Assembly: GCA_020404895.1 (NCBI GenBank)
Contig: JADBWK010000019.1
Span: forward strand, 1 to 64,000
Length of the DNA stretch: 64,000 nucleotides
Direction: 5' to 3'
Source of the DNA: Pseudanabaena sp. M085S1SP2A07QC
GTDB taxonomy: Bacteria; Cyanobacteriota; Cyanobacteriia; Pseudanabaenales; Pseudanabaenaceae
Shown here: piece by piece, positions 52,128 through 64,000 of the stretch
Numbering within the stretch: the first letter of the stretch is position 1
Layout of the letters: each line of letters starts with the position of its first letter
Position numbers and translations under genes: made by a program
Notes under the pieces: generated by a model
Databases searched by the model: none
Told to the model about the DNA's origin: nothing
What the model saw: the letters and a program-made list of their open reading frames with translations, nothing else

Positions 52128-53750
52128 ATGACTGACCTCCCAGAGTTAGATTTACCGCTTACTTACGAAGCCACGCTTAACAGGGTAAGTAACGATATTG
52201 CAAAGATGGCAGAATTTATAGTGCCAGTAACAAAATTTGAGGAGCAAATAATTCATGTCATCAATGATATTAAAGAATCAGGATATATTCTTTTTCTCTA
52301 CGGTATTTCTGGAGTTGGTAAATCAACCTTTATCGGATCTTTGGAGTGGAGAGCGCATATTCCTATTCGTAAAATAGTGAATATTAATGCAAGCGATCTA
52401 AACGAGCCTGAGCAACCTGGATTAAAACTTAAGAAACTATACGCTAAAATCAATCAGATTGTTCGAGATGATAAGCAAACCAGTTCACCCAAAAGTAAAG
52501 ATAAGCTTTGTATAATTATTGACTACTTAGAAAGTTTGCAGGAAGAGTCATTACCTGATGTTAGAGCAATTTTCCGAGATCTAAATGGTTTATTGAGAAA
52601 TTCTCCTGTTCTTATTGTCTGGCCTGTAACCGAAAGAGAAGATCTTGAAAAAATGCAAGAGTATGCATCTAGTTTCTCAAGCAGTCTTTTCCATAAAAGA
52701 ATCCCAGTAATGGAGTTCACAGGTCCACCAGTTGAAGATTATCCTAAAATCGCAAAAAACACCATTAGCTTTTTCAATCATGGTCGTACTTATCATGATT
52801 TCCAGCTACATGATTCTGATTTTGAATCTATAAAGGAATCATATGAAAGTAAGCCTGTAAGCAAACAGATTATTAAAGATTACTTAAAAGACATTAAACT
52901 TTGTTGGGAAGATAAGACGAATTATATTGAAAAAATCTCAAAAACTGTTCCGAAGCAAACTGAAATTTGGTTTATTGTTTGTTATCCTGAAGCAGAAGAA
53001 GTTGTTTCCAGATTTGCAAAGCAAACATTTGATGTTGTAGATGAAACTTGGAATGCAGACTACAGCCAACTATCTGTATATACAAAGGATAATCAGGCTG
53101 CTGCTAAATGGACACCTCAAAGACTCTCACTAGCATTGAATGGAGTGTTTGATACAAAAATAATGTATATACCTACAAATACTCTAATAAGTTGCTTTGC
53201 GGCTTATGCTGAAGATGCAGGAATACCTATTTCTAGAGAAGAGTTTGAAAATTGGGGTGTTCCTAAACATTGGCTTCAAAAACATCCAGCTAAGAATTCA
53301 TTATCTACAACTCCTCTTTATCTTAAATTGGCGGGTGAAGAACCTAAAAAAGGAAAGAGGAAAAGCGGATCTGTTCCAGGCGCTCTTGAGAAAGCTAAGC
53401 CTATTTTCGAGAGATTAAACAAAGACTATATTTCAGGAGCAAAAGGTAGTGATAGACCTTTTAATAAAGCTCTATGTTTAGCTTTGTCAGATATTTTCTC
53501 GGAAGAAAAACCAGATTTAACTTTCCACGTAGAACAGACCCATCCTTGGCTTCAATATATTAGACCTGACATCTTGATAGATGTACCTAATCAAAAATGT
53601 ATATGTATTGAGATGCATTACACTATCAGAACAGCACCTAATGTACTAGCTAAGTACATATTAGGTAAGTTAGACAACTATATGAGGCAAGTAGAGAAAT
53701 TATATGATTCTGGTCAAATACCGATTCTCGAAATTACTAGGTCATTGTAA
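52128..53750 (+). CDS. P-loop ATPase with nuclease-like C-terminus; candidate defence protein
   Basis: 540 residues; not assignable to a named family. Walker A is at 59-67 (GISGVGKST) and Walker B at about 127-133 (LCIIIDYLE). A middle region follows (about 180-420). The C-terminal part (about 440-530) contains IRPDILIDVPNQKCICIEMH, which has the spacing of a PD-(D/E)XK core though with E-x-H instead of E-x-K. The gene is AT-rich with no HIP1 octamer, unlike its surroundings, so it was probably acquired. It stands alone directly before the repeat-separated toxin-antitoxin array. Confidence 0.65.
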   Translation: MTDLPELDLPLTYEATLNRVSNDIAKMAEFIVPVTKFEEQIIHVINDIKESGYILFLYGISGVGKSTFIGSLEWRAHIPIRKIVNINASDLNEPEQPGLKLKKLYAKINQIVRDDKQTSSPKSKDKLCIIIDYLESLQEESLPDVRAIFRDLNGLLRNSPVLIVWPVTEREDLEKMQEYASSFSSSLFHKRIPVMEFTGPPVEDYPKIAKNTISFFNHGRTYHDFQLHDSDFESIKESYESKPVSKQIIKDYLKDIKLCWEDKTNYIEKISKTVPKQTEIWFIVCYPEAEEVVSRFAKQTFDVVDETWNADYSQLSVYTKDNQAAAKWTPQRLSLALNGVFDTKIMYIPTNTLISCFAAYAEDAGIPISREEFENWGVPKHWLQKHPAKNSLSTTPLYLKLAGEEPKKGKRKSGSVPGALEKAKPIFERLNKDYISGAKGSDRPFNKALCLALSDIFSEEKPDLTFHVEQTHPWLQYIRPDILIDVPNQKCICIEMHYTIRTAPNVLAKYILGKLDNYMRQVEKLYDSGQIPILEITRSL

Positions 53751-53770
53751 TTAAACAGTTTAAATACTAT

Positions 53771-53830
53771 TCGCACTGTTTGCTGTTTGAGAAATAGGCG
53801 ATCTGGTGTTGGGTGGTGAGGGGCGATCGC
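53771..53830 (+). repeat. HIP1-type spacer repeat, block 1 (about 1 unit)
   Basis: Contains TGCTGTTTGAG, AATAGGCGATC, TGGGTGGTGAGGGGCGATCG. First of 14 blocks of the same repeat, all in plus orientation. Confidence 0.75.
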
Positions 53831-53904
53831 ATGACTGGATATCGTACAATCTTAAATAACTTGAAATTGACTAAAATAATGATAGTCACTCGGACAGAAA
53901 CAAT

Positions 53905-54165
53905 ATGCTTAATTATTTGACTGTTGCTGAAGCTCAGGAACAATTACCAGCGCTATCTAAAAACCTCAGAGATCCAGCGATTATCACGCAAGATGGTAAA
54001 CCTGTAATTGTTGCTTTGAGTATGCAGCAGTTTGCTTCCTTGGTTGAAACAATGGAGATTTTAAGCGATCGTGAGTTTATGGCAGATTTACGAGAAGGTA
54101 TTCGACAAGCAGATTTAGGACAAACGATTAGTTTAGAAGCCTTGAAATTAGAGTTGGGTTTCTAA
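53905..54165 (+). CDS. Phd/YefM family antitoxin
   Basis: 86 residues with the Phd N-terminal fold (LTVAEAQEQLPALSKNLRD, then VIVALSMQQFASLVETME) and an acidic toxin-binding tail. It represses its operon and blocks the RelE-type toxin seven bases downstream. Confidence 0.9.
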   Translation: MLNYLTVAEAQEQLPALSKNLRDPAIITQDGKPVIVALSMQQFASLVETMEILSDREFMADLREGIRQADLGQTISLEALKLELGF

Positions 54166-54172
54166 TACGGCT

Positions 54173-54508
54173 ATGGAATATAGAATTATTTTTTCCGTTC
54201 AAGCGCGGAAACTGTTTACTGCAATCAAGGATCGGCGCGAACAAAGCCTGATTTTGACAAGGATTGAGAAGCTCAAGGATGAACCAGAAAAACAAGGTAA
54301 GGCTTTATCTGAAGAACTATCGGGCTATCGTAGTATTCGGGCTGTGGGGCAGCGTTATCGAATTATTTATCGAGTTGAACAAGATCGAGTAGTGGTAGTT
54401 ATCGTGGGTGTAGGAAGACGTAAGGAAGGTGATAAGCGAGATGTCTATGCTGTTACACAAGATTTGATTTCAGATCTAGAAATCGATTTAGAAGATGACG
54501 AATACTGA
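54173..54508 (+). CDS. RelE/ParE family toxin
   Basis: 111 residues: IIFSVQARKLFTAIKDR, the central GYRSIRAVGQRYRIIYRVE and RRKEGDKRDVYAV near the end match RelE-fold toxins. It carries a C-terminal extension of about 15 acidic residues (LEIDLEDDEY). It is partner of the upstream Phd antitoxin. Confidence 0.88.
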   Translation: MEYRIIFSVQARKLFTAIKDRREQSLILTRIEKLKDEPEKQGKALSEELSGYRSIRAVGQRYRIIYRVEQDRVVVVIVGVGRRKEGDKRDVYAVTQDLISDLEIDLEDDEY

Positions 54509-54510
54509 TA

Positions 54511-54629
54511 TGGCGATCGCTGTTTAATTTTGAGATTTGGGCGATCGGGTTTATAGGTGATGAGGTGCGATCGCTGTTTGAAGTGAAGATTTAGGCGATC
54601 GGGGTTGTGGGTGTTGAGTGGCGATCGCT
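54511..54629 (+). repeat. HIP1-type spacer repeat, block 2 (about 2 units)
   Basis: Two units of GCGATCGCTGTTT... and ...TAGGCGATCGGG between two toxin-antitoxin cassettes. Confidence 0.85.
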
Positions 54630-54691
54630 ATCCAACAACGTATCAGGTATGCTAAAAATGTAATCATAGACTATAAATTTTATCAAGACTT

Positions 54692-54910
54692 ATGGATACT
54701 CACCAAGAAACCGAATATGTCCTAAGTAACCCACGCTTAATGCAACAGATTAGGCAGTTCAAGCACCATTCTAAAAAATCAAACTCTAATCAAGCAAATC
54801 TTTCTCTCGATTTCGACTATATCCTAAAAAATCCAGAACTAATTACACAAATTCAATTACTAATCGAAACCCACAAACAGAAGCATCATGCGCTCAGTCG
54901 TATTTCATGA
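54692..54910 (+). CDS. Short antitoxin with a duplicated binding motif
   Basis: 72 residues. Two tandem copies of the YefM-type C-terminal segment are visible: ETEYVLSNPRLMQQI (6-20) and DFDYILKNPELITQI (42-56). The Phd DNA-binding half is missing altogether. It overlaps the YoeB-like toxin gene by 23 bases. It is likely an antitoxin that binds toxin but cannot regulate as YefM does. Confidence 0.75.
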   Translation: MDTHQETEYVLSNPRLMQQIRQFKHHSKKSNSNQANLSLDFDYILKNPELITQIQLLIETHKQKHHALSRIS

Positions 54911-55154
54911 AGACACTCTGCAAACATACGAATATTTGAGAGAAACAAATAAACCCATTCACAAAAAACTATTCAATATTCTCAAAGAAATGCAAAAAGG
55001 CGATCCCACTCAAGGAACGGGAAAACCTGAAGCACTGAAGTATGAATTGGCTGGATATTACTCACGGCGTATATCTGACAAAGATCGGCTAGTTTATAGC
55101 TTTGATGACGAAAATATATACATCATCGCTATTGGTGGGCATTACGAAGCTTAG
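54888..55154 (+). CDS. YoeB-like toxin
   Basis: 88 residues. The YoeB core GTGKPEALKYELAGYYSRRI and DRLVYSFDDENIYIIAIGGHY match Txe/YoeB ribosome-dependent ribonucleases, including the C-terminal H-Y pair, extended here by EA. Overlaps the antitoxin gene. Confidence 0.9.
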   Translation: MRSVVFHEDTLQTYEYLRETNKPIHKKLFNILKEMQKGDPTQGTGKPEALKYELAGYYSRRISDKDRLVYSFDDENIYIIAIGGHYEA

Positions 55155-55167
55155 ACTAACCCGTAAT

Positions 55168-55364
55168 TGCGATCGCTGTTTGATTTTGGGATTTAGGCGA
55201 TCGGGTTTTGCGGGTTGTGAGGGGCGAGCGCTGTTTGATGTGGGGAATAGGCGATCGGGTTTGTGGGTGTGAGACGATCTCTGTTTGATTTGAGGGAATA
55301 GGAGATCGGGTTTTGTGGGTGGTGAGAGGCGATCGCTGGTTGAATTGAGGGAATAGGCGATCAC
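55168..55364 (+). repeat. HIP1-type spacer repeat, block 3 (about 4 units)
   Basis: Four somewhat diverged units (GCGATCGCTGTTTGATTT and AGGCGATCGGGTTTTG types), separating a YoeB-like cassette from the DUF3782 gene. Confidence 0.85.
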
Positions 55365-55419
55365 AAAATCCTAGCTTAATTGCTAAAATACTTACACAAC
55401 AATTAATCCTATAAATACC

Positions 55420-56001
55420 ATGTCCGACAACACTATCACCCTAGACGACATCTTCGCTCTCTTCCGCGAAAGCGAACAACAACGACAAGAATATCAGCAC
55501 CAAGCCGAACTAGAAATGGCGGAACTCCGAAAGACTATTGAACAAACAAACAAACAAATTGAGCAAACTAACAAACAAGTTGGGGGACTAACCAGCAGAT
55601 GGGCAGAATTTGTCGAAAACCTAATCAAGCCTGCTGCCGCTAGAATTTTTAGAGAACATGGAATTGATGTTCATTACACAGCCATGCGTGTGAAAGGAGA
55701 TGATGATCGTGGCTCAATGGAAATTGATATTCTAGTAGAAAATGGTAATGAAATAGTAGCAATTGAAGTGAAGTCCCATTTAGAAATTCGCAATGTGAAG
55801 CGATTTTTGGAAGTATTAGCAAGATTTAAAGAAGCATTTCCCAAATACAAAAACTACAAAGTTTATGGAGCCGTAGCAGGAATAAAAATTGATGAAAAGG
55901 CAGATGAATATGCAACACAAGAAGGACTATTTTTAATCGAACCCGCAGGAGATTCTGTCATTATTGCCAATAGTCAAAATTTACAACCGAGAGTCTGGTG
56001 A
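55420..56001 (+). CDS. DUF3782-like PD-(D/E)XK nuclease-family protein with coiled coil
   Basis: 193 residues. An N-terminal coiled coil (about 12-58, with the repeat IEQTNKQIEQTNKQ) precedes a nuclease-like core (about 60-180): MEIDILVENGNEIVAIEVKS has the D and E-x-K spacing of the fold. Proteins of this type are multicopy in filamentous cyanobacteria and of unknown role. It forms a one-gene cassette between repeat blocks. Confidence 0.82.
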   Translation: MSDNTITLDDIFALFRESEQQRQEYQHQAELEMAELRKTIEQTNKQIEQTNKQVGGLTSRWAEFVENLIKPAAARIFREHGIDVHYTAMRVKGDDDRGSMEIDILVENGNEIVAIEVKSHLEIRNVKRFLEVLARFKEAFPKYKNYKVYGAVAGIKIDEKADEYATQEGLFLIEPAGDSVIIANSQNLQPRVW

Positions 56002-56013
56002 TTTTTATTGATT

Positions 56014-56164
56014 GATAGGCGATCAGGTTTGTGGGTGTTGAGGGAGCGATCGCTGTTTGGTTTGAGGAGATAGGCGATCGGGTTTTGTGGGTAGTGAGGG
56101 GCGATCGCTGTTTGATTTGAGGAAATAGGCGATCGGGGTTTGTGGGTGGTGAGAGGGCGATCGC
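56014..56164 (+). repeat. HIP1-type spacer repeat, block 4 (about 3 units)
   Basis: Three units running plus, directly adjoining the stop codon of the minus-strand hicA. Confidence 0.85.
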
Positions 56165-56165
56165 T

Positions 56166-56396
56166 TTATTCTTGGAGTAATTTGAAAAAAGTCTCTTTGT
56201 CAATATCAATATCTTGAATCATTCCCAATAAAGTACCTTGTTTGATATCTTTTCCAGAATGAATTGGAACAACTACTCTTTTTCCCTGAATATTTTTATA
56301 AATAGCATGACTCCCTTTTTGGCGATCAAAATAAAAACCCAATTTTTCGATAACCCTTATAAACTCCTTAGCCTTAACACTTGGGAAGTTACTCAT
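56166..56396 (-). CDS. hicA: HicA family mRNA interferase toxin
   Basis: 76 residues with the double-stranded-RNA-binding-like HicA fold and catalytic histidine in KGSHAIYKN. It overlaps the upstream hicB by four bases. The order hicB-hicA is the reverse of the E. coli order but common elsewhere. Confidence 0.92.
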   Translation of the reverse strand: MSNFPSVKAKEFIRVIEKLGFYFDRQKGSHAIYKNIQGKRVVVPIHSGKDIKQGTLLGMIQDIDIDKETFFKLLQE

Positions 56397-56629
56397 ACCA
56401 AAACACTCAAAGGTTTGACAATTAAATTTTCTCTAGGGATAGGCTGACTATCAGCTATTAAACTTTCAATATATAGCTCAATAGCTTCAGTAATATTAGC
56501 GATCGCCTCTTCAAAAGTATCCCCCTGAGAATGACAACCCCTGAGAATAGGACAAAAAGCGTGATAACCTCCATCTTCTTCCTTTTCTAGAAGCACTGTA
56601 TAGTTGTATGCTTTTTTGCTGTTTTTCAT
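56393..56629 (-). CDS. hicB: HicB family antitoxin
   Basis: 78 residues of the partial-RNase-H HicB domain (YTVLLEKEEDGGYHAFCPIL, RGCHSQGDTFEEA). There is no added DNA-binding domain at the C-terminus, so autoregulation may be weak. Partner of the overlapping hicA. Confidence 0.92.
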   Translation of the reverse strand: MKNSKKAYNYTVLLEKEEDGGYHAFCPILRGCHSQGDTFEEAIANITEAIELYIESLIADSQPIPRENLIVKPLSVLV

Positions 56630-56700
56630 ATATTCTTGAACTTTTTAAGATATCAATCTCTATATTTCATCTACTCGATCATAATTGATTTTTGTTGAGT

Positions 56701-56774
56701 TAGGCGATCGCTGTTTGATGTGGGGGCATAGGCGATCTGGTTTATTGTTGGTCTGGGGCGATCGTTGTTTAATG
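56701..56774 (+). repeat. HIP1-type spacer repeat, block 5 (about 1 unit)
   Basis: One unit plus the start of another (GCGATCGCTGTTTGATGTGG ... GGGGCGATCGTTGTTTAATG) between the hicAB and DUF433/DUF5615 cassettes. Confidence 0.8.
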
Positions 56775-57125
56775 CTATATAAACTCACACGAGTCATTGA
56801 TTGATATGACAACTCCTGCTGGTAAAGAAATAATCACTTCACTTATTCGTTCCATCAACGGCAGTAAATAATCAGGTCTAGTACTACGAGCATCCAAAAC
56901 GACAATTCTCAAATTCTTCCCCACTAAATTTTGCTGATAACGCAAGTTCTTATCCGCAGTAATAAAAGCATCAAAGGGATGATTCTCAGCTAAGCGAAGA
57001 ATTTCACTATCCTTAAACCCATGCCATCCCATATCATCAACATTGTAAACTTCATGACCCCTAGATACAAAAGACTGCTTGAGTTTTCTACTCAGAAGAT
57101 TTTCATCTAATAATATAATCATCAA
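56775..57125 (-). CDS. DUF5615 PIN-like toxin
   Basis: 116 residues: ILLDENLLSRKLKQSFVSRG and DAFITADKNLRYQQNL provide the acidic residues of the PIN-like (Mut7-C-related) fold. It is the predicted ribonuclease of DUF433/DUF5615 toxin-antitoxin pairs. Its start overlaps the antitoxin stop (ATGA). Confidence 0.85.
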   Translation of the reverse strand: MMIILLDENLLSRKLKQSFVSRGHEVYNVDDMGWHGFKDSEILRLAENHPFDAFITADKNLRYQQNLVGKNLRIVVLDARSTRPDYLLPLMERISEVIISLPAGVVISINDSCEFI

Positions 57126-57358
57126 GCAGCGCGTTCCTGAGCAATTAATAATTTGGCAGCACTTTCCAAAACCCTCATAACTTGTGACTTTAGGTAAGGA
57201 AAATCATCAATAAATTCTACTAAACCTCCCTCACCTTCAAGATAGTCAAAAAAAGTCTGCAAAGGAACCCTCGTTCCCTTAAAAACTGGAACTCCACTCA
57301 TAATATCGGGATCGCGATGAATAATCCCTTTCATTTCCAATAAGTTATTTAGTGTCAT
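57122..57358 (-). CDS. DUF433 antitoxin
   Basis: 78 residues: IIHRDPDIMSGVPVFKGTRV is the DUF433 signature, a winged-helix DNA-binding antitoxin family. It is transcribed ahead of the DUF5615 toxin with a four-base overlap. Confidence 0.88.
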   Translation of the reverse strand: MTLNNLLEMKGIIHRDPDIMSGVPVFKGTRVPLQTFFDYLEGEGGLVEFIDDFPYLKSQVMRVLESAAKLLIAQERAA

Positions 57359-57430
57359 TACATTGCACGATATAACCTATTTCATTATAAAACAAAAGCA
57401 TAGACACTCGATCAGGGTTTGCTTTTAGTA

Positions 57431-57500
57431 AGGGGCGATCGCTGTTTGATGTGGTGGAAAATAGGCGATCAGGTTTTGGGGGTGGGGTGGGGTGATCGCT
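57431..57500 (+). repeat. HIP1-type spacer repeat, block 6 (about 1 unit)
   Basis: One unit and the start of a second, just downstream of the broken DUF5615 gene. Confidence 0.8.
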
Positions 57501-57516
57501 ATTATTACAATGCAAC

Positions 57517-57834
57517 TTAGATAGAAATCTCGGCATAATCACCAAGTTTAATTGTATTGATGACATCACAAACCTTTTCAGTCTGTGTCCGAATTTTTGG
57601 CTATGAGGTAGAAAGCAAAACAACAATAGCAATCTGGCGATCGCTCAAATTCTGTTGATAGCGCAAATTCCGATCCGTTGTTACAAATATTTGGTATCCC
57701 TTATCTTCAGAAGATTTGAGTAAATCACCATTCGACAAATTAGACCAACCTTCTTCATAAGCTGTTGTCACAGAATGTTCTATCAAATATTGCCGCAAAG
57801 GTACAGGAGTTCCCTGATCGAAAAGAATCCTCAT
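57517..57834 (-). pseudogene. DUF5615 PIN-like toxin with in-frame nonsense codon
   Basis: The gene opens MRILFDQGTPVPLRQYLIEH and keeps FVTTDRNLRYQQNL, then meets TAG (57603-57601) after LLSTS. The same frame continues PKIRTQTEKVCDVINTIKLG and ends naturally at TAA 57519-57517. The codon is most simply TGG changed to TAG. The 77-residue product lacks the last 28 residues. The partner DUF433 antitoxin looks intact. Confidence 0.85.
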
Positions 57835-57837
57835 AAT

Positions 57838-58089
57838 CTAAGCCACCTCAGCTAGCATATCAAGCTCATAGTTCAGTACAGCCTCAACCTGCGATCGCTG
57901 CACAGGCGGAAACCACTCCAAAAATTCCTCTACTGTTGCACCATCGCGCAAATTTTCAAACAAAGCCGAAACTGGGACTCGCGTCTTCCTAAACACCCAA
58001 GCACCACTCACTTTATAAGGTTCTCTTTCTATAGCATCTAACCTTTCCCAATGCCTCATATACTCTACCTCTGTAAAGTAAAAATACAC
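57838..58089 (-). CDS. DUF433 antitoxin
   Basis: 83 residues, or 73 from the in-frame ATG at 58059 (MRHWERLDAIEREPYKVSGA). The DUF433 pattern is retained (AWVFRKTRVPVSALFENL). Its stop lies three bases before the start of the nonsense-bearing DUF5615 gene. A second copy of this module type lies just upstream in the window at 56775-57358. Confidence 0.85.
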   Translation of the reverse strand: MYFYFTEVEYMRHWERLDAIEREPYKVSGAWVFRKTRVPVSALFENLRDGATVEEFLEWFPPVQRSQVEAVLNYELDMLAEVA

Positions 58090-58138
58090 CTAACAGCCTG
58101 ATTATAAACCAACTTGAAAGCAAGATTTTGACCGTTTA

Positions 58139-58282
58139 AGCGATTACTGTTTGATGAGGGAAATAGGAGATCTGGGTTTGGGTGTTGAGGGGCGATCGCT
58201 GTTTGATGTTGAGTGATTAGGCGATCGGGTTTTGGGTGGTGAGAGGCGATCGCTGTTTGATGTTGGTAATAGGCGATCGGGT
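58139..58282 (+). repeat. HIP1-type spacer repeat, block 7 (about 3 units)
   Basis: Three units in plus orientation; the last ends at the stop codon of the minus-strand toxin at 58283. Confidence 0.85.
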
Positions 58283-58549
58283 TTATGGAAAAAACTTGTA
58301 AATATCTTTACGATGTAAAAATCTCACAAAGATTATTTCATCTTCAAAAACTTCTATCCCTATTCTGTAATCACCCAAACGAATACGATAGAAACTTTCA
58401 TATCCCTGCATCTTTTTTAGATGATTGATTTCCCCCAAAGATTCAGACTGCTTACAGGTCAAAATTATTTGTTTCAACCTTGTTAATAGATTACGATCCT
58501 TGACTAACTTCAAGTCTTTCTCAAACCTAGACTCAAACTTAACATTCAT
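58283..58549 (-). CDS. RelE/YafQ-type mRNA interferase toxin
   Basis: 88 residues: VKFESRFEKDLKLVKDRNLL, FYRIRLGDYRIGIEV and FVRFLHRKDIYKFFP fit the RelE superfamily, close to HigB/YafQ-like toxins. It overlaps the antitoxin gene by four bases. Confidence 0.88.
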   Translation of the reverse strand: MNVKFESRFEKDLKLVKDRNLLTRLKQIILTCKQSESLGEINHLKKMQGYESFYRIRLGDYRIGIEVFEDEIIFVRFLHRKDIYKFFP

Positions 58550-58755
58550 GCAACATCACCATCAAGAATAGTAAAGATCGTCTCTTCAGAAACAAACTCA
58601 TTTTTTCTACCCTCTGCGATCGCATTAGCGAAACCAACCTCTTCCAAAGCATCTCGAAATATTTCTGCAAAAAGCTCTTTTCTTGTCCTAATCAAATCAA
58701 TCAAGACTTCAGTTAGCATTTCTCTAGTCTTTTCATCATTAAGGAATACTTGCAT
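58546..58755 (-). CDS. Antitoxin partner of the RelE-type toxin
   Basis: 69 residues, helical and acidic, with a short first segment and a C-terminal SEETIFTILDGDVA. No DNA-binding motif is certain; role inferred from the four-base overlap with the toxin gene. Confidence 0.72.
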   Translation of the reverse strand: MQVFLNDEKTREMLTEVLIDLIRTRKELFAEIFRDALEEVGFANAIAEGRKNEFVSEETIFTILDGDVA

Positions 58756-58823
58756 ATTTAATCTCTAAATCATAAAAGAAGTCTACATTTCCTAATTCTA
58801 ACTCAAATGAAGCTAGCAAGTAT

Positions 58824-59076
58824 AGGCGATCGGGTTTTGGGTGATGAGGGGAGATCGCAGTTTGATATGGAGTTTAGGCAATCTGATTTTGTGAGTGGTG
58901 ATTGGTGATCGCAGCTTTGATGTGGAGAATAGGCGATCGGGTTTTATGGGTGGTGAGGGTGCGATCGCTGTTTGATTTGAGGGAATAGGCGATCTGGTTT
59001 ATGGGTGATGAGGGTGCGATCGTTGTTTGATGTGGGGAATAGGCGATCGGGTTTTGGGTGATGTGAGGGGCGATCA
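58824..59076 (+). repeat. HIP1-type spacer repeat, block 8 (about 4-5 units)
   Basis: Four to five units between the RelE-type cassette and the DUF29 gene; it accounts for most of the 411-bp gap 58756-59166. Some HIP1 cores are mutated (GGTGATCGCAG, GGCAATCTG). Confidence 0.85.
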
Positions 59077-59166
59077 GGCAGCAAATTTCGTTTAGAATAG
59101 AAAAAATCTACTAAGTTTAGAATATTAAGTAGGTGGTCGCATACTTTAGCAAGGAGTCACAAACAA

Positions 59167-59643
59167 ATGACACAAGCTTTAATCTCAACAAAATCATCAA
59201 ATTTATACGACCGTGATTTCTTGCTATGGACAGAAGAAACAATTACCTGTCTAAAAACTGGTGACTTTAAACAACTAGATATTAACAACTTGATCGAGGA
59301 GATTGACTCATTGGGAAAAGCTCAGAAAAATTCGCTTAAGGGACAAATTCGCGCCCTCATCGAGCATATTATAAAACGATGCTATGTCGATATGCCACTG
59401 GAATACAACGGATGGGAACGCACAATTCGCAATATTCGTCCTGAAATCGAGGATTTAATCGAAACTTCTCCCAGTTTGCAGAACGACTATTCAAAAATCC
59501 TTGATACGGTTTATCAGCAATGTCTCAAAAAGCTGCGTCCAGAATACAAGACAACGAAGTTTCCAGAAACATGGCAATTCAGTAGCTCACTTAATGATCT
59601 GCTGAATTTGGACTTTTGGGAAGATATTCAAAATTCACTCTAG
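59167..59643 (+). CDS. DUF29 family protein
   Basis: 158 residues; the DUF29 pattern is clear (YDRDFLLWTEETITCLKTGD, IEEIDSLGKAQKNSLKGQIR, LEYNGWERTIRNIR). The family is multicopy in cyanobacteria and its role is unknown. It forms a one-gene cassette between repeat blocks. Confidence 0.9.
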   Translation: MTQALISTKSSNLYDRDFLLWTEETITCLKTGDFKQLDINNLIEEIDSLGKAQKNSLKGQIRALIEHIIKRCYVDMPLEYNGWERTIRNIRPEIEDLIETSPSLQNDYSKILDTVYQQCLKKLRPEYKTTKFPETWQFSSSLNDLLNLDFWEDIQNSL

Positions 59644-59652
59644 TCTTATCTA

Positions 59653-59766
59653 ATCGCTCTTTGATGTTGATGAAATAGGCGATCGGGTTTTGTGGGTGTT
59701 GAAGGGCGATCGCTGTTTGATGTTGCGGGAAAGGCGATCAGGTTTGTGGGGGGTGTGGGGCGATCA
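59653..59766 (+). repeat. HIP1-type spacer repeat, block 9 (about 2 units)
   Basis: Two units (ATAGGCGATCGGGTTTTGTG ... GGGCGATCGCTGTTTGATGT) between DUF29 and the YefM/YoeB cassette. Confidence 0.85.
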
Positions 59767-59806
59767 GTTATAATTACCATTAATCTAGCAAACTATATAT
59801 TCTGCT

Positions 59807-60013
59807 ATGACTAACGCATTACAATACATCTGTGATTCAGAAGGGCAAACAGTTTCTGTAGTTGTCCCCGTTGCCTTTTGGCAAGAACTAATGGCAGAAA
59901 GAGAAACAGCCTATCTGCTTAGTAGTCCAGCCATGAAGAACAGACTGCTTAAAGCTAGAAAACGTCAGGATGGAATCTCTTTGGAAGCAGCCTGTGAAAA
60001 ACTTGGAATTTGA
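59807..60013 (+). CDS. YefM-like antitoxin
   Basis: 68 residues. The C-terminal toxin-binding segment ETAYLLSSPAMKNRLLKA is the classic YefM pattern; the N-terminal domain is shortened (VSVVVPVAFWQELMAE). It overlaps the YoeB-like toxin by 20 bases. Confidence 0.85.
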   Translation: MTNALQYICDSEGQTVSVVVPVAFWQELMAERETAYLLSSPAMKNRLLKARKRQDGISLEAACEKLGI

Positions 60014-60251
60014 TCAAGATGCTTTTGAAGACTTAGCTTGGTGGATTGAAAGCGATCGCAAAAAAGCTTTAAAAATCATCAAACTGATTCGTGAAGTCCA
60101 ACGTAATCCATTTGAAGGCACAGGACAACCTGAAGCACTAAAACACGATCTATCTGGCTGTTGGTCACGGCGGATCGATCAAGAACATCGTCTAGTTTAT
60201 GAAGTTCTAGACGATAAAATCAGAATTCTCGCCTGCCGCTTTCACTACTAA
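59994..60251 (+). CDS. yoeB: YoeB toxin
   Basis: 85 residues from GTG 59994 (KNLEFDQDAFEDLAWWIESD); the frame extends upstream to 59970 but that part lies within the antitoxin. GTGQPEALKHDLSGCWSRRI and the terminal FHY are diagnostic of YoeB, a ribosome-dependent mRNA endonuclease. Confidence 0.93.
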   Translation: MKNLEFDQDAFEDLAWWIESDRKKALKIIKLIREVQRNPFEGTGQPEALKHDLSGCWSRRIDQEHRLVYEVLDDKIRILACRFHY

Positions 60252-60252
60252 A

Positions 60253-60630
60253 AATCGCTGTTTGATGTTGAGATTTAGGCGATCGGGCTTTGTGGGTGTT
60301 GAGGGGCGATCGCTGGTTGATATTGAGATTTAGGCGATCGGGTTTTGTGGGTTGTGAGTGGCGATCGCTGTTTGCTGTTGGGAATAGGCGATCGGTTTTG
60401 TGGTGATGAGGGGCGATCGCTGTTTGATTTGAGGGAATAAGCGATCGGGTTTTGTGGGTGTTCAGGGGCGATCGTTGTTTGATGTGGGGAATAGGCGATC
60501 GGTTTGTGAGTGTTGAGGGGCGATCGCTGTTTGATTTGAGGGAATAGGCGATCGGGTTTGTGGGTGGTGTGGGGCGATCGCTGTTTGATGGGGATTTAGG
60601 CGATCGGGTGTTGGGTGTGAGGGCAATCTG
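60253..60630 (+). repeat. HIP1-type spacer repeat, block 10 (about 7 units)
   Basis: The longest block. Seven consecutive units of 50-57 bp, each beginning GCGATCGCTGTTTGAT (or a close variant) and containing TAGGCGATCGGG then TGTGGGTGTTGAGGGG. It fills the gap between yoeB and the DUF6883 gene. Confidence 0.92.
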
Positions 60631-60682
60631 TCCAAATAGTCTGACAAGTATTAGAATTAGATAGACCCAACGCTTCAAGCCT

Positions 60683-61015
60683 ATGAAACTACCAAACGGT
60701 GACAGAGCCGAACTAGGAGACAAACTCGAAAGATATTGTCTGAACTATGAACACCAGAAAGGTAAACATAAAGCCCTACTTTTTGAAAAACGTCTTGGGA
60801 TTACCATCGCCAACAAAGAAATTTTAGAAAAAGCTCTACAAGAAGCAGCGATCGAAGGTGAAGCCGAACTCTTTAAAATCGATCAATATGGCACTCATTA
60901 TGATCTTGCATTTTCACTTTGTACCGATATTGGTGAATCCCTAGTCCTAAGTTGTTGGATTATCAAAATTACAGAAGACTTTCCACGCCTAACTAATACT
61001 TACCCTATCGATTAA
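60683..61015 (+). CDS. DUF6883-like protein
   Basis: 110 residues: the opening MKLPNGDRAELGDKLERYCL and HQKGKHKALLFEKRLGI are typical of this small cyanobacterial family. It lies eight bases before the DUF4926 gene, a pairing seen elsewhere, so it may be one partner of a toxin-antitoxin-like module. The function is unknown. Confidence 0.78.
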   Translation: MKLPNGDRAELGDKLERYCLNYEHQKGKHKALLFEKRLGITIANKEILEKALQEAAIEGEAELFKIDQYGTHYDLAFSLCTDIGESLVLSCWIIKITEDFPRLTNTYPID

Positions 61016-61023
61016 AAAGCACT

Positions 61024-61266
61024 ATGAACGAAATCCAAGAATACGATCTTGTTGCACTAACTGAAGATGCGATCGCCACTCATAAAGTTACCCATCAGCA
61101 AATCATGCTCCGCCGAGGACAAATGGGAACAGTCTTAATGTCATTTGATCGTAAAGCCTTTCTAATCGACTTTACTGATAAGCAAGGCAACACCTTCGCA
61201 ATGGAAACAATCGAACCAGTAAAATTATTACGCCTTATTAACGAACCAGAATTAGTTCTTTCTTAA
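61024..61266 (+). CDS. DUF4926-like protein
   Basis: 80 residues: EYDLVALTEDAIATHKV and RRGQMGTVLMSFDRKAFLID resemble DUF4926 proteins, small beta-rich (SH3-like) proteins. It is probably co-translated with the preceding DUF6883 gene. Confidence 0.78.
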   Translation: MNEIQEYDLVALTEDAIATHKVTHQQIMLRRGQMGTVLMSFDRKAFLIDFTDKQGNTFAMETIEPVKLLRLINEPELVLS

Positions 61267-61268
61267 AC

Positions 61269-61414
61269 TTAGTCGCTATTTGGTGTTGAGAAAATAGGCG
61301 ATCGAGTTTTGGGTGATGAGGGGCGATCGCTGTTTGATGTGGGAAATAGGCGATCGGTTTTTTGGTGCTGAGGGGTGGTCGGATTTGTGGGTTATGAGGG
61401 GCGATCGTGCTTTG
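61269..61414 (+). repeat. HIP1-type spacer repeat, block 11 (about 2-3 units)
   Basis: Two clear units and a degenerate third between the DUF4926 gene and the minus-strand brnA. Confidence 0.85.
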
Positions 61415-61416
61415 AT

Positions 61417-61674
61417 TTAATGTAAAACTTTCCCCGATTCTTCCTGCTCCTTCGCTTGGCGTAAAACTTCATTAATCAAATTTTGATAGCCAAGTTCTCC
61501 CGCCTTCAATTTAAAATACTCAATAAGATTGGAATCCAAAGAAATAGTAATACTTTGCTTGCGAGGCATAGGTTTAAGTGCTATACGAAACTTTGCCCGT
61601 TCTAAATCTGCTTGTGTTACTTCGGAATATTCATCACGATCGTTAGAGGTTTCTGAAGAAGAGAAGTTGTTCAT
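61417..61674 (-). CDS. brnA: BrnA family antitoxin
   Basis: 85 residues from ATG 61674 (MNNFSSSETSNDRDEYSEVT); the frame extends upstream inside brnT. The ribbon-helix-helix segment KQSITISLDSNLIEYFKLKA is characteristic. It overlaps brnT by 32 bases. Confidence 0.9.
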   Translation of the reverse strand: MNNFSSSETSNDRDEYSEVTQADLERAKFRIALKPMPRKQSITISLDSNLIEYFKLKAGELGYQNLINEVLRQAKEQEESGKVLH

Positions 61675-61912
61675 TTTTGTTTGCCTCACGCATGGAAATA
61701 ATACGGATTTCATCTTCGGTTTCGGTATGTACGATAACAACAACTTTCATACCTAAGAGTCCAATCGTTACCCAACGCTGTTCTCCATAGTTTTCACGGT
61801 TATCTTCGAACGTGAATGTCGAGCCTATAAAGACTTTTTCAGCATTCACAAAATCGATAGCGTGCTTTTTTAGGTTGCTTTGCCTTTTAACTTCATTCCA
61901 TATGAATTTCAT
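61643..61912 (-). CDS. brnT: BrnT family ribonuclease toxin
   Basis: 89 residues: MKFIWNEVKRQSNLKKHAID, TFEDNRENYGEQRWVTIGLL and IRIISMREANKNEQ match BrnT along its length. It is the second brnTA module in the window; the pair at 37874-38390 is only moderately similar. Confidence 0.92.
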   Translation of the reverse strand: MKFIWNEVKRQSNLKKHAIDFVNAEKVFIGSTFTFEDNRENYGEQRWVTIGLLGMKVVVIVHTETEDEIRIISMREANKNEQLLFFRNL

Positions 61913-61979
61913 ATATAACTTTTATTATACATACCTTAAATCACTCGTCTCTTGAGAATAAAGTTTAGCATTTAGAATA

Positions 61980-62106
61980 TGGCGATCACTTTTTGATTTT
62001 GAGATTTAGGCGATCAGGTTTTGTGGGTGTTGAGGGGGCGATCACTGTTTGATTTGAGGGAATAGGCGATCGGGTTTTGTGGGTGTGAGGGGCGATCTTT
62101 GTTTTG
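61980..62106 (+). repeat. HIP1-type spacer repeat, block 12 (about 2-3 units)
   Basis: Two units plus a partial one between brnTA and hicBA. Several cores have GCGATCAC instead of GCGATCGC. Confidence 0.85.
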
Positions 62107-62214
62107 ATTGACTTCAGGATTTTGGCGATCGCAAATGATTCGTCAACCTATAGTAGACTAAGGCAATAACCTGAAAGCAATTTAGGCAAATCAAGATAAA
62201 CGAGTTAGTCAAAA

Positions 62215-62430
62215 ATGATTAGAGAATTTAACGTAGTTATCGAAAAAGACTCTGACGGGTATTTTGTCGCCTCAATCCCAAATTTAAGAGGCTGCCATAC
62301 CCAAGCAAAATCACTTGATGTCCTCATGGAACGTATTCAAGAATCGGCTGAACTATGCTTGGAATTTGAGCGCCAAGATATTCCATCCCCAGAGTTTATA
62401 GGTATACAGAAAATTTTAGTAACCGTATGA
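62215..62430 (+). CDS. hicB: HicB family antitoxin
   Basis: 71 residues: FNVVIEKDSDGYFVASIPNL and RGCHTQAKSLDVLMERIQES form the HicB core, again without an added DNA-binding domain. Overlaps hicA by four bases. Confidence 0.92.
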   Translation: MIREFNVVIEKDSDGYFVASIPNLRGCHTQAKSLDVLMERIQESAELCLEFERQDIPSPEFIGIQKILVTV

Positions 62431-62651
62431 GCAAACTACCAAGTTTGACAGGAAATCAACTAATCAAAGTTCTAGAGAAAATAGGCTTTGATATAGCGCG
62501 AGTGAAAGGTAGTCATCATATTCTTATTCATGCTGATGGTAGACGCACAGTAGTTCCAGTTCATTCAGGTGAAGATATCGGAACTGGGCTACTTTCACAA
62601 ATTCTAAGAGATTGTCAGATCGCAAGAGATGAACTTAGAGACTTGCTATAA
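62427..62651 (+). CDS. hicA: HicA family mRNA interferase toxin
   Basis: 74 residues with catalytic histidine in KGSHHILIHADGRR and the C-terminal SQILRDCQIARDEL helix. Second hicAB module of the island, in the opposite orientation to the first. Confidence 0.92.
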   Translation: MSKLPSLTGNQLIKVLEKIGFDIARVKGSHHILIHADGRRTVVPVHSGEDIGTGLLSQILRDCQIARDELRDLL

Positions 62652-62681
62652 GTTTATATCTTGTTTTGATTGACTTGAGGA

Positions 62682-62824
62682 TATTGGCGATTAGGTTTGT
62701 GGGTTGTGAGGGGCGATCGCTGGTTGATGATGAAGGAATAGGCGATCGGGTTTGATGTGTGAGGGGGCGATCGGGGTTTGATGTTGGGGGAATAGGCGAT
62801 CGGGGTTTGTTGGGGGTGAGGGCG
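62682..62824 (+). repeat. HIP1-type spacer repeat, block 13 (about 3 units)
   Basis: Three units, G-rich (GGGGGCGATCGGGG, GTTGGGGGAATAGGCGATCG), ending just before the minus-strand gene at 62845. Confidence 0.85.
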
Positions 62825-62844
62825 GAAATCTCACCATGCAACTT

Positions 62845-63480
62845 TTATGATTTACAAATAGCTTTAAGAACTTTAAGAATCTGTATAGAAGGTTCAGACT
62901 CGATCAACGATAAAGAAGGGAATAACTGATAGATCGGTGATTCTCCTGCACAGATGCGAATAAACTGAAAATGTAAACCATTTGTTGCTAAACCCCAAAC
63001 CGAAGACTGAGAACGCAAAGACTCATGGGCATAGATTAATAATTGCGGAATTCCTGTAAAAGGTTCAATTCCTGCTTTCTTTGCTTCAACTATCAGCACC
63101 CAAAGTTTAGTTGAATTTTGGACTCCAGACTTTTTAACCGCCAAAATATCATATCTACCAGTAATGCTAGTATCCGCTTCGAGAATATCAATACGCTGAA
63201 TATTTTCTTCTAAAAGTAACTCGATCGCTTGGTTATAGTAACCTGTCAAATTCATCAGAGGCGCAAGAGCAAGAAACTTAATTTGTCCTTCGGAAACTCT
63301 ACCTGACAATAGATACCGCCGAAAATTAGTACAAATCTCGGTTAGTTCTGTTTGCTCAAAATCAGAAATAGATTCCAAATCCAAATAATCAGAAAAAACA
63401 CCCATCTCTCCAGACTCATGGAAGCCTAATAGATGTTGTACGTCTTCAAAATTTAAATTTTTCGCGGCAAGTGTAACCAT
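62845..63480 (-). CDS. Restriction-endonuclease-like (HsdR N-terminal type) protein
   Basis: 211 residues. The region about 105-165 reads GRYDILAVKKSG then LWVLIVEAKKAGIEPFTG, the D and E-x-K of a PD-(D/E)XK nuclease as in type I restriction R-subunit N-domains. There is no helicase, methylase or specificity subunit, so it is a stand-alone one-gene cassette of unknown role. Confidence 0.78.
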   Translation of the reverse strand: MVTLAAKNLNFEDVQHLLGFHESGEMGVFSDYLDLESISDFEQTELTEICTNFRRYLLSGRVSEGQIKFLALAPLMNLTGYYNQAIELLLEENIQRIDILEADTSITGRYDILAVKKSGVQNSTKLWVLIVEAKKAGIEPFTGIPQLLIYAHESLRSQSSVWGLATNGLHFQFIRICAGESPIYQLFPSLSLIESEPSIQILKVLKAICKS

Positions 63481-63551
63481 ATCAATCTCTTGCTAAATTA
63501 GCGATATTTTCGATCTTAACATCTAAACAATTACTATTGAGGCTCAGTGAA

Positions 63552-63640
63552 TGGCGATCACTGTTTGATTTTGAGATTTAGGCGATTGGGTTTTATGGGT
63601 GGTGAAGGGCGATCGCTGTTTGGTGTGGGGAAATAGTCGA
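63552..63640 (+). repeat. HIP1-type spacer repeat, block 14 (about 1-2 units)
   Basis: Last block in the window (GGCGATCACTGTTTGATTTT ... GGGCGATCGCTGTTTGGTGT), before the partial Phd gene. Confidence 0.8.
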
Positions 63641-63729
63641 TAGATATTTATGAAGAATCATAGAAATTGCGATCGCTAAGAAAGATCAGCTATCATTAAA
63701 TTAGATCTGAATTAAGTGCTTTGACAACT

Positions 63730-64000
63730 ATGATCGAGCTAAAAAATATCCATTCCCTCAGCGACTTCAAGCGCAACGCCAAAGAATTTATTGAACGCAT
63801 TAAATCAACACAATCGCCTATGGTTCTAACCGTTAACGGTAAAGCTGAAGTCGTTGTGCAAGATGCTCATGCCTTTCAAGCAATATGCGATCGGGCAGAG
63901 CAAGCCGAAGCCGAACTTCGCGCCCTAAAACTTGCAACACTACAACAAGATATTAACCTCGGAATTGCACAACTCAAAAATGGTGACTACACCGAATACG
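63730..64000 (+). CDS. Phd/YefM family antitoxin (partial, cut by the window end)
   Basis: 90 codons from ATG 63730. The Phd fold is evident in IHSLSDFKRNAKEFIERIKS and PMVLTVNGKAEVVVQDAHAF. A toxin gene probably follows outside the window, continuing the array. Confidence 0.88.
   Translation, partial: MIELKNIHSLSDFKRNAKEFIERIKSTQSPMVLTVNGKAEVVVQDAHAFQAICDRAEQAEAELRALKLATLQQDINLGIAQLKNGDYTEY

Follow-up and report, generated by a model that had tools for sequence, protein, structure and literature searches.

A 64,000-nt stretch of DNA from the cyanobacterium Pseudanabaena sp. M085S1SP2A07QC (assembly GCA_020404895.1, contig JADBWK010000019.1, positions 1 to 64,000 of the forward strand; hereafter the window) carries towards its right end an array of small gene modules, many of them toxin-antitoxin pairs, that alternate with blocks of a tandem repeat containing HIP1 (highly iterated palindrome 1). 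Compared with other arrays of the genus, the modules behave as cassettes, a conclusion that we consider well supported. A profile of the 55-nt repeat unit run with nhmmer finds 14 blocks with 38 units and 1,895 nt of repeat in 53774-63641, all on the plus strand, and 13 modules stand between them. These counts match a preliminary description of the locus, which had given 14 blocks of 35-40 units over about 1.9 kb, in exact alternation with thirteen one- or two-gene modules. It had also stated that every block reads in the plus direction although the modules face either way, as do 38/38 units here. The array is as follows (blocks from nhmmer, modules named by Pfam matches, paired genes joined by a plus sign).

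53774..53822, plus strand: repeat block 1, 1 unit
53905..54508, plus strand: module 1, Phd/YefM antitoxin + ParE toxin
54513..54618, plus strand: repeat block 2, 2 units
54692..55154, plus strand: module 2, small protein + YoeB toxin
55169..55362, plus strand: repeat block 3, 4 units
55420..56001, plus strand: module 3, DUF3782 / PD-(D/E)XK-like protein (below cut-off)
56015..56153, plus strand: repeat block 4, 3 units
56166..56629, minus strand: module 4, HicB antitoxin + HicA toxin
56704..56752, plus strand: repeat block 5, 1 unit
56775..57358, minus strand: module 5, DUF433 + DUF5615 (PIN-like)
57435..57487, plus strand: repeat block 6, 1 unit
57601..58089, minus strand: module 6, DUF433 + truncated DUF5615 (77 aa; 105 aa in the relative G003_L135_m2)
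58140..58288, plus strand: repeat block 7, 3 units
58283..58755, minus strand: module 7, RelB-like antitoxin + ParE toxin
58820..59065, plus strand: repeat block 8, 5 units
59167..59643, plus strand: module 8, DUF29
59653..59750, plus strand: repeat block 9, 2 units
59807..60251, plus strand: module 9, RelB-like (weak) + YoeB
60254..60617, plus strand: repeat block 10, 7 units
60683..61266, plus strand: module 10, DUF6883 + DUF4926
61273..61374, plus strand: repeat block 11, 2 units
61417..61912, minus strand: module 11, BrnT toxin + BrnA antitoxin
61982..62086, plus strand: repeat block 12, 2 units
62215..62651, plus strand: module 12, HicB + HicA
62668..62820, plus strand: repeat block 13, 3 units
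62845..63480, minus strand: module 13, HSDR_N_2-like (weak; below cut-off)
63554..63641, plus strand: repeat block 14, 2 units, with seven more blocks outside the window, up to C101:69008
63721..64000, plus strand: module 14, cut by the window end, Phd antitoxin, whose ParE toxin partner is immediately beyond it (L031:171-458)

Ten of the 13 modules are gene pairs, one fewer than the eleven toxin-antitoxin or paired modules of the preliminary description. Seven hold a named Pfam toxin family over cut-off (ParE, YoeB and HicA twice each, and BrnT); paired small genes of known families, as in type II toxin-antitoxin systems, are thus present in the window. Two further modules are DUF5615/DUF433 pairs, presumably with a PIN-like protein as toxin; the second DUF5615 is truncated and below cut-off, and its pair is decayed. 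The remaining four carry DUF3782, DUF29, DUF6883/DUF4926 and an HSDR_N_2-like protein. Where DUF3782, DUF29 and restriction-like proteins had been named as the rest, DUF29 is borne out, the DUF3782 and HSDR_N_2 matches are both below the Pfam cut-offs, and DUF6883/DUF4926 has to be added. The array had been taken to end at 63640; its blocks run on to position 69008 of the same 165,690-nt contig (C101 in our numbering), about 5 kb beyond the window, for a total of 21 blocks, 55 units and 20 modules. Proteins scanned in this continuation include ParE (two), DUF2283, PemK/MazF (two), HEPN with nucleotidyltransferase and DUF6883, with a PBECR2/DUF4258 match below cut-off. At its right end the array gives way to a gene that we name glgB from its sequence.

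The typical unit of about 55 nt contains two GATC-centred cores, GCGATCGC (HIP1) and the related GGCGATCG, with C-poor spacers between them. One strand of the type-A blocks, those of the repeat on which most counts below are based, is 73% G+T, against 45% in type-A modules; blocks of types A, B, D and F, together with five stretches from another cyanobacterial family, measure 67-75%. Outside the cores C makes up 2.5% of the type-A repeat, and TGG occurs 36 times per kb on the G+T-rich strand and not once on the opposite one. No Rfam family scores above its gathering threshold in 53700-64000. As single strands, three blocks fold better than shuffled sequences (z from -3.3 to -6.0), mostly as short stems between GATC cores and in a manner unlike that of attC sites. 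We rejected the blocks as intrinsic terminators, a role that had been denied them from the outset: a terminator scan of the region returns 7 terminator-like sites, against 7.2 in shuffles.

The direction of the repeat is uniform. We sampled arrays around repeat matches and oriented each by its own repeat, some arrays of some genomes lying outside this sample. In 42 loci with 572 units and 190 blocks, no unit faces opposite to its locus; the mixed loci that random orientation would give are absent. For type A alone, 545/545 units agree within their locus (40 loci, 19 genomes, 181 blocks); two loci with other dialects of the repeat, L032 (dialect B) and L053 (dialect F), are excluded from the type-A counts. 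L059 is kept as type A by score and may belong to dialect F, having few, weak units and a left flank that matches an L053 cassette. Arrays of one complete chromosome point either way, so the polarity belongs to the array and not to the chromosome coordinate; read for replication polarity in 20 samples, the GC skew of that chromosome is too faint to locate its replichores. Small transposons with the repeats as their ends would account for modules that move between sites and for the presence, in some genomes, of two copies of one family. Transposition is expected to insert either way, however, and every type-A locus has uniform polarity; moreover, the repeats flanking a module are in direct orientation, direct repeats being the kind searched for in the array. 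We regard this explanation as very unlikely.

Most segments between type-A blocks (123/141) measure 467-773 nt. The 16/141 outside 300-1000 nt are excluded from the counts of families, neighbours, identity and order given below. Nearly all of the others (122/125) fall into 25 families. In the 109 modules with assigned genes the stop codon lies at a median of 14 nt from the block and the start codon at 63 nt. Similar segments share their orientation relative to the repeat in 321/321 pairs, long segments included, and in 275/275 pairs of the 300-1000 nt set. The 321 pairs comprise 21 between the sister strains G023 and G025 and 7 within a genome (17 and 5 for the 275); with G025 left out, 228 of them join different genomes. 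The genes themselves follow the same rule: a single direction per family is found in 30/30 assignable families (of 32), 13 plus and 17 minus. This count uses 129 modules, the 125 of type A and four of dialects B and F, none of which shares a type-A family; 15/129 have no assigned gene, and 5 with open reading frames in both directions were dropped.

Position is free where orientation is fixed. Between species, 66 pairs of families are concordant in order and 69 discordant (48 vs 50 without G025). A neighbouring family is conserved in 6/253 non-sister comparisons (4/203 without G025) vs 18/19 between the sisters. Sister and within-genome pairs are kept apart in the neighbour, identity and order counts, part of which are doubled, each other genome being set against both sisters. 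A module whose place varies while its orientation does not has the hallmark of an oriented cassette, and the array consists of discrete cassettes that alternate with a recurring site and are shuffled between strains, as the preliminary description had proposed of its modules. At array ends, a known cassette stands directly right of the last block in 11 loci and directly left of the first block in 3; these loci are too few for us to claim a cassette unit made of a block and the module that follows it.

Modules of the same family are closely related across the genus. In non-sister genomes their median identity is 92.9% vs 86.1% for a 1,050-nt piece of glgB compared over the same pairs of genomes, and modules exceed glgB in 221/251 pairs, without correlation between the two (r = 0.05); it counts against too literal a use of these values that host divergence is gauged by one gene and that local BLAST alignments favour high module identity. 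The size of the identity gap and the lack of correlation point to transfer of modules within the genus.

Sister strains differ by whole block-bounded units, which had been suggested as a check. G023 and G025, 99.8% identical in glgB, differ in the three array pairs compared by four segments with blocks on both sides: 611 nt in L052 and 2,117 nt in L055 are found only in G023, 659 nt in L066 and 1,949 nt in L065 only in G025. The 2.1-kb G023 segment carries PIN and DUF433 genes, some genes matching TumA/TumE toxin-antitoxin models below cut-off; apart from partial similar pieces it is not found in the whole G025 genome. The 659-nt G025 cassette belongs to family 12, and its counterpart in the whole G023 genome is a repeat-free homologue only, 87% identical. 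In G025 the place of the 2.1-kb piece is taken by one six-unit block, which is chimeric: at its start stands a unit 100% identical to the one that opens the left G023 block, and the two units at its end resemble the final two of the right G023 block at 96% and 94%. Block copy number varies as well, for example 9 vs 12 units.

The window array is one of many in the genus. The exact unit pattern, run against 84,980 species genomes, gives 28 matching stretches, labelled Pseudanabaena but for one in Phormidium tenue FACHB-1050 and one in an Oscillatoriales metagenome-assembled genome. Among 58 sampled genomes, that of the window being one, a match occurs in 26/26 of the genus, in 1/9 from other genera of the family (one hit) and in 2/23 elsewhere in the class. 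Had the repeat been equally frequent among ordinary genes, it would have been expected in control sequence; twenty evenly spaced 20-kb stretches (400 kb) of one complete genus genome hold no unit of at least 17 bits. Viral contigs show no match to the exact unit pattern and phage records none to one 3.8-kb array query. The same query gives three weak matches among plasmids; as one is on a plasmid of Pseudanabaena sp. ABRG5-3 (NZ_AP017566.1, 106376-106560), the arrays may reach plasmids.

Some array sites are shared and others are not. In 20 other genomes of the genus, the 3.5-20 kb read upstream of glgB contain no unit of at least 17 bits, so the site of the window array is not shared. In several genomes the same core gene has an array downstream of it, with cassettes that differ between loci (L228 and L066; L063, L070 and L124, in their left flanks). 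The 3' end of this gene was read in three loci and named Mg-chelatase H by eye; the site is a shared hot spot for arrays. Gene-by-gene annotation of the flanks covered this core-gene piece. A static origin, in which modules stay in their original places, the repeats having expanded in between and losses having differed from lineage to lineage, would agree with the sisters' conserved neighbours in 18/19 comparisons, with the variable copy number of the blocks and with the recurrence of arrays downstream of the same core gene. It is at odds with the random order between species (66 vs 69), the different cassettes at the shared core-gene site, the repeat-free stretches upstream of glgB and the modules that are more alike than glgB in 221/251 pairs, and we find it highly improbable.

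Several larger genes were seen in or near these arrays. The sister strains have different defence-like genes in the interval from the core gene to the array (L055 1445-4870 and L066 3215-8107), with UvrD/GajB-like pieces and a transposase in one strain and AAA/OLD-like genes in the other. Within an array of G023, a 4.7-kb segment (L055 12012-16252) encodes an ApeA-type HEPN protein and an AAA_21 ATPase, hence arrays hold larger defence genes too. Segment 4 of L060 (3.2 kb, G002) is an element with an internal inversion; the right flank of L051 also matches it, in either direction. In the window, a gene for an AAA/STAND-like NTPase (52128-53750; Pfam matches below cut-off, no PADLOC match) adjoins the first block on its left, and a caspase-domain protein (Peptidase_C14 with DUF4384) is encoded further upstream of the array, at 46372-48591.

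The genome of the window has other dialects of the repeat on other contigs. A query for dialect D, with a unit of about 97 nt, matches in 26/26 genus genomes, weakly in G006, G016, G023 and G025, where other dialects could be responsible. In 23 dialect-D loci, 139/140 units agree in direction. Similar dialect-D modules share their orientation in 99/99 pairs (48 modules of 300-1300 nt, 46/48 of them in 11 families) and in 115/115 pairs when all segments are taken; the 11/59 segments outside this range are left out of the 48, whereas all 59 enter the 115-pair count, which skips segments below 100 nt and is not split by sister or within-genome pairs. None of the 48 has a nucleotide match of at least 150 nt to the 129-module set, to which four matches of about 110 nt at 71-75% were found, and the segments of dialects B to F have none in common with type A. 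The two large pools thus follow their own repeat. Beyond the genus, a genome of another cyanobacterial family (G037) has small paired modules between tandem HIP1 repeats of a different consensus (L206 1-2900, L205 9742-10230), G+T-rich and all one way in the stretches read of this one genome. Its modules resemble what we take to be DUF4160/DUF2442 and HigB/HigA. This suggests that a related system is not confined to one genus.

Crossing over within the repeat blocks is in our view the probable route of cassette exchange, with homologous recombination of the RecA type as the likeliest process and the repeats as putative homology patches. A cassette would be a module, mostly of 467-773 nt and usually a two-gene toxin-antitoxin operon, that moves with flanking HIP1-containing repeat; the gap upstream of its genes could hold a promoter of its own. 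Crossovers within blocks would let cassettes be gained, lost, duplicated and swapped between arrays and species. As the repeat is asymmetric, crossing over would fix the direction of a module relative to it and leave position free, and as pairing needs similar repeats, dialects would keep separate pools; homologous pairing of repeats would thus explain orientation and pools together. The HIP1 cores are palindromic, yet 0/321 pairs are inverted, which suggests that the asymmetric part of the repeat directs exchange; the separate dialect pools suggest the same. RecA has been reported to prefer TGG repeats (PMC3763553, seen in part), and for this reason the G+T bias may favour RecA loading. In Synechocystis PCC 6803 recA can be dispensed with, according to PMC5101192. 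Partner DNA could be taken up from relatives or be a circle cut out between a pair of blocks. The toxin-antitoxin genes would help to stabilise the array by putting a cost on losses.

A dedicated site-specific recombinase of non-integron type, cutting at HIP1 or at a fixed position of the repeat and moving cassettes the way an integron does, is an unlikely alternative that draws on one feature in particular, the homology of alike modules ending near the block edge. Its expected product at a palindromic HIP1 core would include inverted cassettes, of which there are none in 321 pairs. Homology also ends at variable points, roughly 10 to 100 nt inside the block (where readable by eye, 12 most alike pairs), and the piece read of the flank that a group of loci share belongs to the end of the core gene.

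Exchange by crossing over within blocks has a number of observations to contend with. Units beside alike modules resemble each other scarcely more than units taken at random do, and the homology of such modules ends within the first units of the block; sharp ends of this kind would also fit a site-specific junction or fast turnover of units. Units 2-4 of the chimeric G025 block have no counterpart above 93% elsewhere in the compared sister loci, so that a single simple crossover fails to explain it. The ComEC family occurs in 25/26 genomes but also in 10/14 controls, E. coli among them, and uptake of DNA from relatives is therefore only plausible. In dialect D, one weak unit (18.8 bits) lies on the other strand and order has been shuffled to a lesser degree (9 concordant vs 3 discordant, with neighbours kept in 9/55); the separation of pools rests on two large ones and a few small ones. 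The repeat-free homologue in G023 (C1:1642465-1643071; L228 3466-4072) consists of family-12 toxin-antitoxin genes that follow immediately on the core gene and point opposite to the array beside them. All these points together weigh against our explanation, as does the fact that the recombination events are deduced from comparing sequences, none having been watched directly. The left flank of L127, outside the array, likewise holds pieces of families 12 and 20 that face the opposite way. Since repeat-free family-12 genes outside arrays face the other way, orientation seems to be constrained only inside arrays; such free copies may be what cassettes derive from, or what is left of them.

The textbook example of a cassette array is the integron, and true integrons coexist with the HIP1 arrays in the genus. 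Integron integrases (IntI) score over the NCBIfam cut-off in 13/26 Pseudanabaena genomes. Two are in the genome of the window (C82:34193-35041 and C21:9474-10322), on other contigs than the array (C101), and in G023 the nearer IntI lies about 16 kb from a small array. The preliminary description had allowed for neither an integrase nor an attC fold. At the window array no integrase is seen as far as the flanking genes were read, in agreement with it; elsewhere in this genome and in the genus the statement does not hold. An attC test combining a core-site pair with a DNA fold finds 0 sites in the blocks of five arrays, as had been said, and is positive in 5/10 IntI loci (L195-L204); a single attC-like match in L055 (18689) is outside the detected blocks. 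The blocks are not attC sites, and an integron assignment fails on both integrase and attC. One could still think of a diverged integron, with the blocks as attC sites on which the IntI of the genus act in trans, given the IntI genes in 13/26 genomes, this one included, the architecture and toxin-antitoxin content reminiscent of Vibrio superintegrons and the three blocks that fold better than shuffles. With a test that recognises attC in 5/10 IntI loci and in no block of five arrays, with 13/26 repeat-bearing genomes devoid of an IntI over cut-off (several hold fragments) and with folds that are mostly short stems between GATC cores, this is the least credible of the explanations considered here.

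The superintegron comparison made in the preliminary description is thus right for the architecture and stops at attC. Vibrio chromosomal (super)integrons contain many toxin-antitoxin cassettes (PMC11551772, consulted in part). The Pseudanabaena arrays are like them in length, in the alternation of small cassettes with a recurring site, in toxin-antitoxin cargo and in shuffled order. They are unlike them in that there is no attC in the blocks tested and no integrase seen at the locus, in that genes face both ways with an upstream gap, in blocks that are tandem repeats of variable number, and in the many arrays per genome with several dialects.

Neisseria has elements that resemble these arrays in proposed mechanism. 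According to the parts of PMC3898611 available to us, intergenic repeat arrays (dRS3 and Neisseria intergenic mosaic elements, NIME) are proposed to promote recombination with incoming DNA, and minimal mobile elements are whole-gene cassettes acquired by homologous recombination; repeat arrays and a proposed mechanism of homologous recombination are common to these and to Pseudanabaena. In the same parts, two conserved genes enclose the Neisseria cassette, or repeats stand on either side of a single surface gene, and dRS3 has inverted termini. The long alternating array of one polarity is a Pseudanabaena feature, none being described for Neisseria in what we saw of that source. Here cassettes lie between repeat blocks instead of two conserved genes and the array flanks differ, except for the group of loci with one common core gene on the left. 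Orientation and the partition by dialect, as read from the sequences, fit homologous recombination alone, which is a feature of minimal mobile elements.

Two cyanobacterial cases are also related. HIP1 has been linked to site-specific recombination (PMC4390886, seen in part), and the Pseudanabaena units, like the HIP1/SDR (small dispersed repeat) modules of cyanobacteria, carry HIP1-like cores (GCGATCGC); HIP1 is elsewhere scattered genome-wide; in Pseudanabaena, cassette arrays concentrate a long asymmetric tandem repeat that has HIP1 at its core. In Microcystis, a toxin-antitoxin pair lies between two 152-bp direct repeats next to MaOC1 (PMC7935541, seen in part). The likeness is a type II pair between direct repeats; it is one pair, its repeat has a 16-bp inverted repeat, and no array or shuffling is described in the parts seen of that paper. 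Among the matches listed in our literature search (mainly openly available papers; titles and abstract openings), neither such arrays nor HIP1 recombination in them is described. We rate the arrays as categorically new as a system, of which the underlying recombination may well be ordinary. Tentatively, they could be more than this, namely a second, independent cassette system of cyanobacteria, with polar G+T-rich HIP1 recombination sites, a private pool for each dialect and a repeat-specific function, RecA loading or a recombinase of its own, driving exchange; we hold this to be possible, if somewhat doubtful.

The arrays combine an integron-like architecture and cargo, shuffled order and signs of exchange between species, without attC in the blocks or an integrase at the locus. 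Their interpretation as exchanging cassettes predicts that orientation never changes, that position is free and that dialects never mix. If it is true, repeats of fixed direction are enough by themselves to organise a common pool of defence and toxin-antitoxin genes. HIP1 is over-represented in cyanobacteria and its role is still unexplained; the arrays offer a natural setting for testing it, and if they do form a cassette system, part of that role would be to serve such exchange.

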